NCBI RefSeq assembly: GCF_001571325.1
Contig: NZ_BCTO01000012.1
Span: 1-64,000 of the forward strand
Direction of reading: 5' to 3'
Origin: Delftia tsuruhatensis NBRC 16741
GTDB lineage: Bacteria; Pseudomonadota; Gammaproteobacteria; Burkholderiales; Burkholderiaceae_C
DNA length: 64,000 nt
The notes under the pieces are model-generated. The model was not told the DNA's origin. It searched no databases and saw only the letters and a program-made list of their open reading frames with translations. The translations under genes and the position numbers were made by a program. Below, in pieces: positions 34,162 through 37,869 of the stretch (position 1 is the stretch's first letter; every line of letters starts with the position of its first letter).

Positions 34162-35631
34162 ATGACCACAGTTCGATGGAAGACGCTGCAGTCCTGCACA
34201 CTGGCAGGCGTTCTGGCGCTGGCTGCTGGCAGCGCCTCAATGCTGGTGCCGGTGAGTGCCGCTCATGCGCAAAGCGGTGCCGTGGTGCGGGGTCTGCCGG
34301 ACTTCACCGACCTGGTCGAGCAGGTAGGGCCTTCCGTGGTCAACATCCGCACGTTGGAGAAGGCGTCGGCCAACTCTGCCGAGGCGCTGGGCATGGATGA
34401 GGACATGCTCGAGTTCTTCCGCCGCTTCGGCCTGCCCGTGCCCAATGTGCCGCGCCAACGCCCCCAGCCGCGTTCACAGCCTGACGAGGAACAGCCGCGT
34501 GGCGTGGGGTCGGGCTTCATCCTGACGGCGGACGGCTTTGTGATGACCAATGCCCACGTGGTCGAAGGCGCTGACGAGGTCATCGTCACGCTGACCGACA
34601 AGCGTGAGTTCAAGGCCAAGATCGTGGGCAGCGACAAGCGCACCGACGTGGCCGTGGTCAAGATCGATGCCACCGGACTGCCCGCCGTGAAGATCGGCGA
34701 CGTGAACCGTCTCAAGGTCGGTGAGTGGGTGATGGCCATCGGATCGCCCTTCGGCCTCGACAACTCGGTCACCGCAGGCATCGTCAGCGCCAAGCAGCGC
34801 GACACGGGAGACTATCTGCCCTTCATCCAGACCGATGTGGCCATCAATCCCGGCAACTCGGGCGGCCCGTTGCTGAACATGCGCGGCGAGGTCGTGGGCA
34901 TCAACAGCCAGATCTATTCGCGTTCCGGCGGTTTCATGGGGATCAGCTTCGCGATTCCGATCGACGAGGCCGTGCGCGTCAGCGACCAGCTGCGCGCCAC
35001 CGGCAAGGTCACGCGAGGGCGCATCGGCGTGCAAATCGGGCAGGTCACCAAGGACATTGCCGAATCCATCGGCCTGGGCAAGGCTCAGGGTGCGCTGGTC
35101 TCTGCCGTGGAACCCGATTCCCCAGCCGCCAAGGCCGGCGTCGAGGCGGGTGACGTGATCATCAAGTTCGATGGGAAGGCCATTGAGAAGGTCGCCGACC
35201 TGCCGCGTCTGGTGGGCAATACCAAGCCCGGAACGCGCAGCACCATCACGGTATTCCGCCGCGGAGCCGCCAAGGATCTGACCATGGTGATCGCCGAAGT
35301 CGAGCCCGATGGCGCTCCCCAGGCAAAGGCTGCAGGCAAGGGCAGCACCCTGGTCTCCCAGTCGCTGGGCCTGACGCTGGCCGAACTCACGGATGCCCAG
35401 AAAAGGGAATTGGGCATCAAGGGCGGTGTCCGCGTGACGGCCGCTGTCGAGGCGGCAGCACGCGCAGGCCTGCGCGAAGGTGATGTGATCCTGCAACTGG
35501 CCAATGTCGAGATCACGGGGCTCAAGAGCTTCGAGGCCACGCTGGCCAAGGTGGACAAGAGCAAGCCGGTGAACCTTCTGGTGCGCCGCGGCGAATGGGC
35601 TCAGTACGTGCTCATCCGTCCTGCCCGCTGA
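34162..35631 (+). CDS. mucD: Periplasmic serine protease/chaperone MucD (DegP/HtrA family)
   Basis: A 489-residue periplasmic protease. Signal peptide about residues 1-36 (ending A-H-A-Q-S). Trypsin-like triad: His132 (N-A-H-V-V-E-G), Asp162 (R-T-D-V-A-V-V-K), Ser233 (P-G-N-S-G-G-P-L). Two PDZ domains follow (about 285-375 and 395-480). It removes misfolded envelope proteins and is a classic sigma-E target. ATG at 34162 is supported by AAGGA 5 bases upstream and by the signal peptide; the open frame extends to 33922 through the hairpin and promoter and is not used. Confidence 0.95.
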   Translation: MTTVRWKTLQSCTLAGVLALAAGSASMLVPVSAAHAQSGAVVRGLPDFTDLVEQVGPSVVNIRTLEKASANSAEALGMDEDMLEFFRRFGLPVPNVPRQRPQPRSQPDEEQPRGVGSGFILTADGFVMTNAHVVEGADEVIVTLTDKREFKAKIVGSDKRTDVAVVKIDATGLPAVKIGDVNRLKVGEWVMAIGSPFGLDNSVTAGIVSAKQRDTGDYLPFIQTDVAINPGNSGGPLLNMRGEVVGINSQIYSRSGGFMGISFAIPIDEAVRVSDQLRATGKVTRGRIGVQIGQVTKDIAESIGLGKAQGALVSAVEPDSPAAKAGVEAGDVIIKFDGKAIEKVADLPRLVGNTKPGTRSTITVFRRGAAKDLTMVIAEVEPDGAPQAKAAGKGSTLVSQSLGLTLAELTDAQKRELGIKGGVRVTAAVEAAARAGLREGDVILQLANVEITGLKSFEATLAKVDKSKPVNLLVRRGEWAQYVLIRPAR

Positions 35632-35700
35632 GGGGCTGGGGCAGGTCGGTTTTTCGGGGTCCTGGGGAATACCCTCGGAATCCGGACCAAGGCCTGCCCA

Positions 35701-35730
35701 TGCCCCTTGGGGCATTGGGTAAAATGCCCC
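35701..35730 (+). promoter_or_regulatory. Mutually exclusive hairpins
   Basis: The central GGGGCA (35709-35714) can pair with TGCCCC on its left (35701-35706) or, as GGGGCATT, with AATGCCCC on its right (35723-35730). Only one can form at a time, as in attenuators. No T-run follows either. Confidence 0.4.
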
Positions 35731-35841
35731 ACCAAAGCGTGACGGCTCAAGGCGTCAGAAACCTGTTTTCAAAGAGGATTGTTGCGGTGCAAAAGCACCG
35801 CACTATCCGGTGATCGACGGGCTAGAAATGGCTTGTCGGGT

Positions 35842-35863
35842 CTGTTGATAAACTGTTGATAAA
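35842..35863. repeat. Two tandem 11-bp repeats, DnaA-box-like on the minus strand
   Basis: CTGTTGATAAA occurs twice head-to-tail with an 11-bp period, one helical turn. The reverse strand reads TTATCAACAG, one mismatch from the DnaA box TTATCCACA. Function unknown. Confidence 0.6.
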
Positions 35864-35909
35864 TAATTGTGACAGATCAAGCCCGGAGCTTTGCAGGCCT
35901 TGTCAGGGC

Positions 35910-35937
35910 TTGGTTTCCAGCCCTTTTTGCCTACAAT
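35910..35937 (+). promoter_or_regulatory. Candidate sigma-70 promoter upstream of lepA
   Basis: TTGGTT, 16-base spacer, TACAAT. The -10 differs from consensus at one base; the -35 is only half matched. Transcription would start near 35944. Confidence 0.45.
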
Positions 35938-35943
35938 AAAGTC

Positions 35944-36008
35944 CCAACTATCGCAGTTGCCAGAGATTGTTGGTTCGGGGCGCGTCGTTCATGGACGCGC
36001 CCTTTTTT
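35944..36008 (+). ncRNA. Possible small RNA or lepA leader with terminator
   Basis: From the candidate start near 35944 to the T-run at 36003-36008 is about 65 nt. It would contain a 5-bp hairpin CAACT-ATCGC-AGTTG (35945-35959) and a terminator stem GGGCGCGTC / GACGCGCCC (35978-36002) followed by TTTTTT. It could be a stand-alone small RNA or an attenuated lepA leader. Sequence alone cannot decide; the right end is firmer than the left. Confidence 0.35.
35978..36008 (+). terminator. Intrinsic terminator 53 bases upstream of lepA
   Basis: 9-bp GC-only stem, 7-base loop, then six T residues. It has full terminator form, yet lies after the last visible promoter and before lepA. Confidence 0.75.
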
Positions 36009-36060
36009 CTTGCGCGCCGACCCTGTCGTTTTCCACTTTCACTAGCAGTCCTTCTCGTTG

Positions 36061-37868
<1,808 letters not shown>

Positions 37869-37869
<1 letters not shown>

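Follow-up and report, generated by a model that had tools for sequence, protein, structure and literature searches.

The closest described system to the RNA reported here is IhtA of Chlamydia, in which pairing of a loop over the AUG of a histone H1-like gene has been proven to repress that gene (PMC4355289, PMC3469542). Short two-hairpin RNAs with a terminator are likewise described in Betaproteobacteria, among them the RF02278 double-hairpin or toxic sRNAs, bdhR1, ncS03/05/27/62, and Bordetella S17 (PMC5688073, PMC11722255), and CcnA of Caulobacter is also a bacterial RNA tied to cell cycle control (PMC8959179). With respect to replication control, the DnaA box is given as TTWTNCACA (PMC4585315), E. 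coli DnaA prefers double boxes 2 to 3 bp apart (PMC11317965), and the DARS core, which has three DnaA boxes, is marked by the opposed orientation of boxes I and II (PMC8682772).

The DNA analyzed here is a 64-kb stretch (the window) from a member of the Comamonadaceae; among 80 named lepA loci, its closest relative was that of Delftia sp. PS-11 (98%, 200 residues). Between the end of mucD (trypsin and PDZ domains) at 35631 and the start of lepA (LepA_C) at 36061, an earlier note had proposed an unannotated RNA of about 65 nt that was either a new sRNA or a lepA-lepB attenuator. We consider it reasonably probable that this locus encodes a family-specific, trans-acting sRNA, likely controlled by DnaA, that blocks the translation of two nucleoid-type proteins; no experiment has been performed, and there are no data on expression, Hfq, DnaA binding, or targets. 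The features of the region are as follows.

35843..35862, minus strand: double DnaA box, TTATCAACA twice, 2 bp apart (TGTTGATAA-AC-TGTTGATAA on the plus strand)
35910-35915, plus strand: weak −35-like element TTGGTT, read from the sequence
35932-35937, plus strand: −10 element TACAAT, read from the sequence, with a 16-nt spacer to the −35 element (promoter, 35910..35937)
35943..36008, plus strand: predicted small RNA of ~65 nt, from the fold and the covariance model match
35944..35973, plus strand: 5' hairpin CCAAC-t-ATC / GAT-t-GTTGG, arms 35944-35952 with 35965-35973
35953..35962, plus strand: loop core GCAGTTGCCA, whose complement TGGCAACTGC occurs at two gene starts
35978..36008, plus strand: intrinsic terminator with T-run, from sequence, scan, and fold; arms GGGCGCGTC (35978-35986) and GACGCGCCC (35994-36002)
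36003-36008, plus strand: T-run of the terminator, read from the sequence
36061..37869, plus strand: lepA, ATG at 36061, 52 nt past the T-run; LepA_C (PF06421); possible read-through product

No transcript ends have been mapped; the RNA start was inferred to lie 6 to 8 nt past the −10 element, and the RNA end was taken to be the end of the T-run. The promoter-like pair described in the earlier note held for its −10 element, which was exactly TACAAT in 96 of 97 RNA loci (all preselected for TACAAT with at most one mismatch), but not fully for its −35 element, which was judged to be weak because a consensus scan of 35000-37000 returned no sigma-70 site at threshold. The two hairpins and the full terminator were confirmed by sequence, scan, and fold. 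The scan of the same region recovered the terminator, with 3 terminator-like sites compared to 1.7 ± 1.4 in shuffles. The predicted fold of 35943-36009 consisted of two hairpins, with the terminator folding independently, and had an energy of −29.3 kcal/mol, whereas shuffles gave −17.2 ± 2.9 (z = −4.2), with none of 200 reaching so low an energy. A shorter alternative pairing in the first hairpin, CAACT/AGTTG, may be what the earlier note had seen. One criterion for a trans-acting sRNA is an intergenic position with its own −10 element and an intrinsic terminator, and this was met on sequence features only, with a weak −35 element. Since the RNA recurs at the same place throughout the family, the feature is not due to chance, and the predicted RNA gene appears nearly certain to be real. 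The ~65-nt sRNA upstream of lepA was thus borne out by its fold (z = −4.2), its family-wide recurrence, and its fixed place beside lepA.

The spread of the RNA was determined with a covariance model (R1) built from 44 sequences, that of the window included; as one of the model's own members, the window was matched with 89 bits at 35942-36008. At a score of at least 43 bits, the model matched 72 of the 80 named lepA loci, of which 43 were its own members; the match in L099 was cut by the contig end, and the loop in L079 was changed. Loci L060, L061 (contig too short), L085, L088, L095, L103, L108, and L111 were unmatched. When the family was scanned, matches were present in 178 of 200 genomes and 125 of 141 genera, weak matches counted; 20 low scorers among the 178, falling below the matches listed, comprised 9 with the GCAGTTGCC loop and 11 with another hairpin or none. 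Across the order, four sampled family members scored at least 83 bits and the 146 other genomes at most 29.1 bits. An occurrence outside the family was rejected: 29 of these 146 genomes were matched, none above 29.1 bits, and no lepA start was present in any of the 26 of 29 loci fetched. In all 116 genomes with both the RNA and LepA among the matches listed, the RNA was on the lepA strand, 1 to 187 nt upstream (median, 45). Family genomes such as G288, G305, G256, G334, G224, and G278 have kept a −10-like element and a terminator before lepA, with a quite different 5' hairpin and loop, as if other putative small RNAs had taken the place of this one.

The loop sequence GCAGTTGCC was identical in 54 of 54 RNAs of alignment A1 and in all 44 of alignment A2, whose loci had been picked for the GCAGTTGCC core with at most one mismatch. 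Paired cells accounted for 96.3% of helix 1 and 99.2% of helix 2 in the alignment. Roseateles-type rows were left out of model R1 because MAFFT had misplaced their 3' arm in A1. In a comparison of the stem among relatives, suggested earlier as a check, the inner stem differed in kind among 31 distinct hairpins (no formal count was made), with the types CCAAC-t-ATC/GAT-t-GTTGG in the window, CCAACAA/TTGTTGG in the Roseateles type, and CCAACACC/GGGTTGG in L102. Covariation in the Comamonadaceae-type alignment was not significant, since that alignment is too conserved: a single pair had substitutions in both partners, 96 of 500 shuffles scored equally high, and RNAalifold gave 0.

Sequence complementarity links the hairpin loop GCAGUUGCCA to AUGGCAACUGC, the start region shared by a SWIB-domain gene and an H1-like gene. 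Both genes emerged from an unbiased search in which the 10-mer complement TGGCAACTGC was sought in eight genomes, yielding 110 loci, and the flanking proteins were clustered. The sites of G000, G048, G203, and G204 were all read, except for the RNA's own in three of them, and those of G218, G361, G331, and G395 were read only in part. In two clusters, each drawn from five genomes, the site lay at the start codon. One represents a SWIB-domain protein (PF02201; ~100 residues). The other represents a protein rich in Lys and Ala that is encoded directly behind nrdB (PF00268); this protein has no Pfam match, so that "histone H1-like" is our own description. The other clusters were dropped because their sites were not at conserved start codons or came from only two or three genomes. 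A third frame starting with ATGGCAACTGC (L212, G203:C1:651894; 259 codons, MATASFDTAG...) was present in one genome only. In each of the eight genomes, the TGGCAACTGC 10-mer outnumbered its reversed form, a difference that may reflect composition and carries no weight.

Both genes began with exactly ATGGCAACTGC in the RNA-bearing genomes (SWIB, 28/28; H1-like, 28/28), which were chosen by hand among those with a model match; the SWIB starts were located without use of the site. Identity, profiled only for starts bearing the site, was 1.00 from +1 to +11 in both genes, compared with 0.57 and 0.50 at +12 and 0.71 and 0.57 at −1. Codons 2 and 3 were invariably GCA and ACT at both starts, down to their synonymous third bases, while in the rest of the H1-like genes GCA supplies 17% of the Ala codons and ACT 13% of those for Thr. 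At codon 4, the third base, which lies just outside the complementary stretch, varied. The window loop reads GCAGUUGCCAG, and predicted pairing is therefore 10 nt in the window and 11 nt in relatives whose loop continues with U; the loop of many relatives, GCAGUUGCCAU, is able to pair with the full conserved start stretch. The window RNA was predicted to pair with the two starts better than 499 of 500 and 500 of 500 loop shuffles did.

The same starts were compared in genes and genomes without the RNA. Plasmid SWIB genes started otherwise in 5 of 5 cases; they were rejected as an outgroup, as the search gave only distant copies. Fifteen family genomes lacking a model match (the complete ones listed, among 22) were compared. 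The SWIB start was exact in 7 of them and changed in 8; the H1-like start was readable in 13 (G278 had none, and G285 was without an nrdB match), being exact in 5 and altered in the other 8. Thus, a genome without the RNA may still retain the site. The GCAGTTGCC sequence was absent from the DNA upstream of lepA in all 11 of these 15 genomes that were read, and the absence of the RNA from G223, G337, G348, and G376 rests on model scans alone. In G348, G376, G272, G350, and G315, the changed H1-like start is merely the sequence that comes closest to the site with no more than two mismatches. RNA presence was associated with exact starts (Fisher P = 4e-5 and 1e-5), with descent ignored. Analysis of co-loss on the NrdB tree had no power: there were five changes of RNA state, and nothing can be concluded because only one independent pair was on well-supported branches. 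A conserved, exposed stretch complementary to conserved mRNA sites is a further criterion for a trans-acting sRNA and was met as far as sequence can tell. The SWIB and H1-like genes are described here as likely targets, with pairing and repression inferred and the starts compared within the family only.

Upstream of the promoter, the double DnaA box is the sole such place within three mismatches in the 64-kb window on both strands. A pair of TGTKNATAA 9-mers, 2 bp apart, was present with at most two total mismatches in 95 of 97 RNA loci (67 with none), while a similar mucD stretch, used as a control, had at least five mismatches in 96 of 96; the RNA was present without the double box in L032 and L102. 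These 97 loci were the window, the named loci, and the best 30 family scan matches, picked for GCAGTTGCC and a near-TACAAT element and not dereplicated by species. The free fifth base of TGTKNATAA fits the DnaA box TTWTNCACA. The distance from box start to −10 start was 90 bp in 68, 89 bp in 17, and 91 bp in 5 of the 95 loci (89 to 91 bp in 90/95); the gap between the RNA and lepA in the same loci ranged from 0 to 196. Without mismatch, the double-box pattern occurred in 6 of 12 genomes, once each and always at the RNA locus. With one mismatch, it was at the RNA locus in 14 of 16 RNA-bearing genomes and at five further places, and it occurred in 1 of 15 RNA-lacking genomes, on a contig other than that of lepA; none of the RNA-lacking loci read showed double boxes. 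A double box 2 to 3 bp apart near a promoter is one criterion for a DnaA-controlled promoter and is observed here; DnaA control of the RNA is probable, with binding and the direction of control being inferred.

Other elements were noted in and around such boxes. One of the five further places (L193) is directly upstream of dnaA (DnaA confirmed by Pfam). Double boxes with one mismatch also lie between desaturase-like and rRNA-methyltransferase-like genes in two genomes (L194 and L195) and beside a DnaK-like gene (L192), these names being taken from the protein letters. In the window, 35849-35861 (TAAACTGTTGATA), across both boxes, also fits the IHF consensus TAAnnnnTTGATW as quoted in PMC8682772, a fit that is lost where the second box of a relative reads TGTGNATAA. 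About 120 bp upstream of the double box, at 35716-35725 (TGGGTAAAAT), lies a further extended −10-like element, and GNTARAAT was present within 200 bp upstream of the box pair in 81 of 95 loci (no control); such an element could give a longer RNA running through the boxes. A dyad, GTTG(C)-N-(G)CAAC, lies between the boxes and the promoter in 80 of 95 loci, ~7 bp past the double box in, e.g., L037.

These results suggested a working model. From the conserved gene anatomy, we infer by sequence and comparison that a sigma-70-type promoter with a strong −10 and a weak −35 element would be transcribed into a ~65-nt, two-hairpin RNA whose second hairpin is the terminator. The 5' hairpin would present the conserved loop GCAGUUGCCA, which could pair over 10 nt with AUGGCAACUGC, i.e., with the start codon and codons 2 to 4. 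At the complementary SWIB and H1-like starts, which are observed, inferred pairing of the loop with the AUG would keep ribosomes off both mRNAs, and repression is likewise inferred. The double box, found at its fixed distance ~90 bp upstream of the −10 element, probably lets DnaA set the RNA level, although its binding and the direction of its effect are inferred, and the two nucleoid-type proteins would in this way be tied to replication.

The position of the RNA allows another reading. In every one of the 116 genomes, it lies beside lepA, immediately upstream and on the lepA strand, which a free trans-acting gene need not do, and a terminator before lepA is kept in most genomes even with a different hairpin. 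In L047, L062, L098, and L105, moreover, the T-run runs directly into the lepA ATG, leaving no space for a separate promoter or Shine-Dalgarno sequence, so that lepA mRNA there most likely comes from read-through; in general, lepA is probably transcribed by read-through or from an unfound start. The RNA could accordingly be the 5' leader of lepA-lepB, starting near 35943, in which lepA expression is set at 36008 by a terminator that is leaky or conditional and the short RNA is the terminated product, without trans function. Of the rivals, this is the one that we take most seriously, and we still consider it unlikely. The attenuator branch of the earlier note is not excluded, given the constant adjacency to lepA and the contact of T-run and ATG, but it is the less likely branch and has little support, because no antiterminator pairing was seen by eye (no systematic search was made), the RNA lies anywhere from 1 to 187 nt from lepA, and the spacing between box and RNA is constant. 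A leader would also leave the conserved loop and the complementary gene starts unaccounted for. The sRNA branch was favored by an RNA with its own −10 element, a compact two-hairpin form, a conserved loop, an upstream module at a fixed distance, and two trans sites.

Two further rivals accept the RNA or the boxes and dispute what connects them to the rest. The RNA may be real and its true targets or protein partners others, the gene starts being alike for a different reason, such as favorable early codons of MATAKK proteins. That genomes lacking a model match still had the site at 7 of 15 SWIB and 5 of 13 H1-like starts, and that the association is untestable on the tree, would fit this explanation, which we rank next and also doubt: 11 nt are common to two unrelated genes and include two seldom-used codons, the constraint stops where complementarity stops, and plasmid SWIB starts differ in 5 of 5. 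The least probable of the three is that the boxes form a replication control site of the DARS or datA type and that the RNA merely occupies the same intergenic region. In 77 of 95 loci, the double box is indeed preceded by an opposed pair, YCCACA-N5-YCCACA, 44 to 45 bp away in 70, which recalls the opposed boxes of the DARS core as described in PMC8682772. However, the spacing from box to −10 element is fixed within a base or so, which a separate site would not need, only one box pair was found in the window, and the RNA-lacking loci that were read showed no boxes.

The trans-acting sRNA remains our preferred reading. Its broadest form, that a DnaA-controlled sRNA couples the replication initiator to translation of chromatin-type proteins family-wide as an independent counterpart of IhtA wired to the replication cycle, is tentative, and we place it slightly short of an even chance. 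If true, a regulatory RNA with two identified targets would belong to the core of the family of Comamonas, Acidovorax, and Variovorax; the guarding by an RNA of the initiation codon of a histone H1-like gene in bacteria would have a second, independent case; DnaA would be connected to nucleoid-type proteins by a route open to direct testing; and the strong terminator before lepA would be explained.

Among known RNAs, no Rfam family reached its gathering score in the window. The RF02278 model, in particular, had no row at gathering score in the window (more than 50 bits being required) and none at E ≤ 10 in 35850-36100, so that the RNA differs from that family in lacking a match. Permissive Rfam rows were discarded as being at chance level, those for AsrC being antisense and over the lepA start, and ncS35 (PMC5760752) and S17 were rejected as identities because both are located elsewhere, S17 adjoining coq7 rather than lepA in the accessible description. 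The genome of the window does have one RF02278 member, a Betaproteobacteria toxic sRNA (G000:C9:27285-27347, L112; 65.1 bits against a cutoff of 50), whose visible C/U-rich stretch is unlike the loop of the RNA upstream of lepA. CcnA differs in acting on CtrA and GcrA, according to the title of PMC8959179. The DnaA-bound double-box promoters of E. coli, e.g., nrdA, have two boxes 2 to 3 bp apart upstream of the promoter, as here; the portion of PMC11317965 available mentions no sRNA for any of the 16 bound regions, the terms "sRNA" and "small RNA" being absent from it, and DnaA binding at the present locus is inferred. In the open-access literature, as far as it was accessible and with subscription papers and supplements outside its scope, we recognized no description of this RNA among lepA-upstream, family, DnaA-controlled, or SWIB/H1-like-targeting sRNAs, and we rate it as a new RNA family and as new among start-codon-blocking sRNAs. 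Compared with IhtA as described in the parts of PMC4355289 and PMC3469542 available, which report no DnaA boxes, it is found in unrelated bacteria, is shorter (~65 versus 107 nt), has two stem-loops and thus does not meet the three-stem-loop criterion, and has a predicted contact of 10 to 11 nt in place of the 7-nt CAUGGCG. As in IhtA, a hairpin loop is the complement of the sequence around the initiation codon of an H1-like gene, there is a second target encoding a small basic protein (a likely one here), and the last hairpin is an intrinsic terminator. By this analogy, with pairing and repression inferred, the RNA may be said to work like IhtA without being classed as IhtA.
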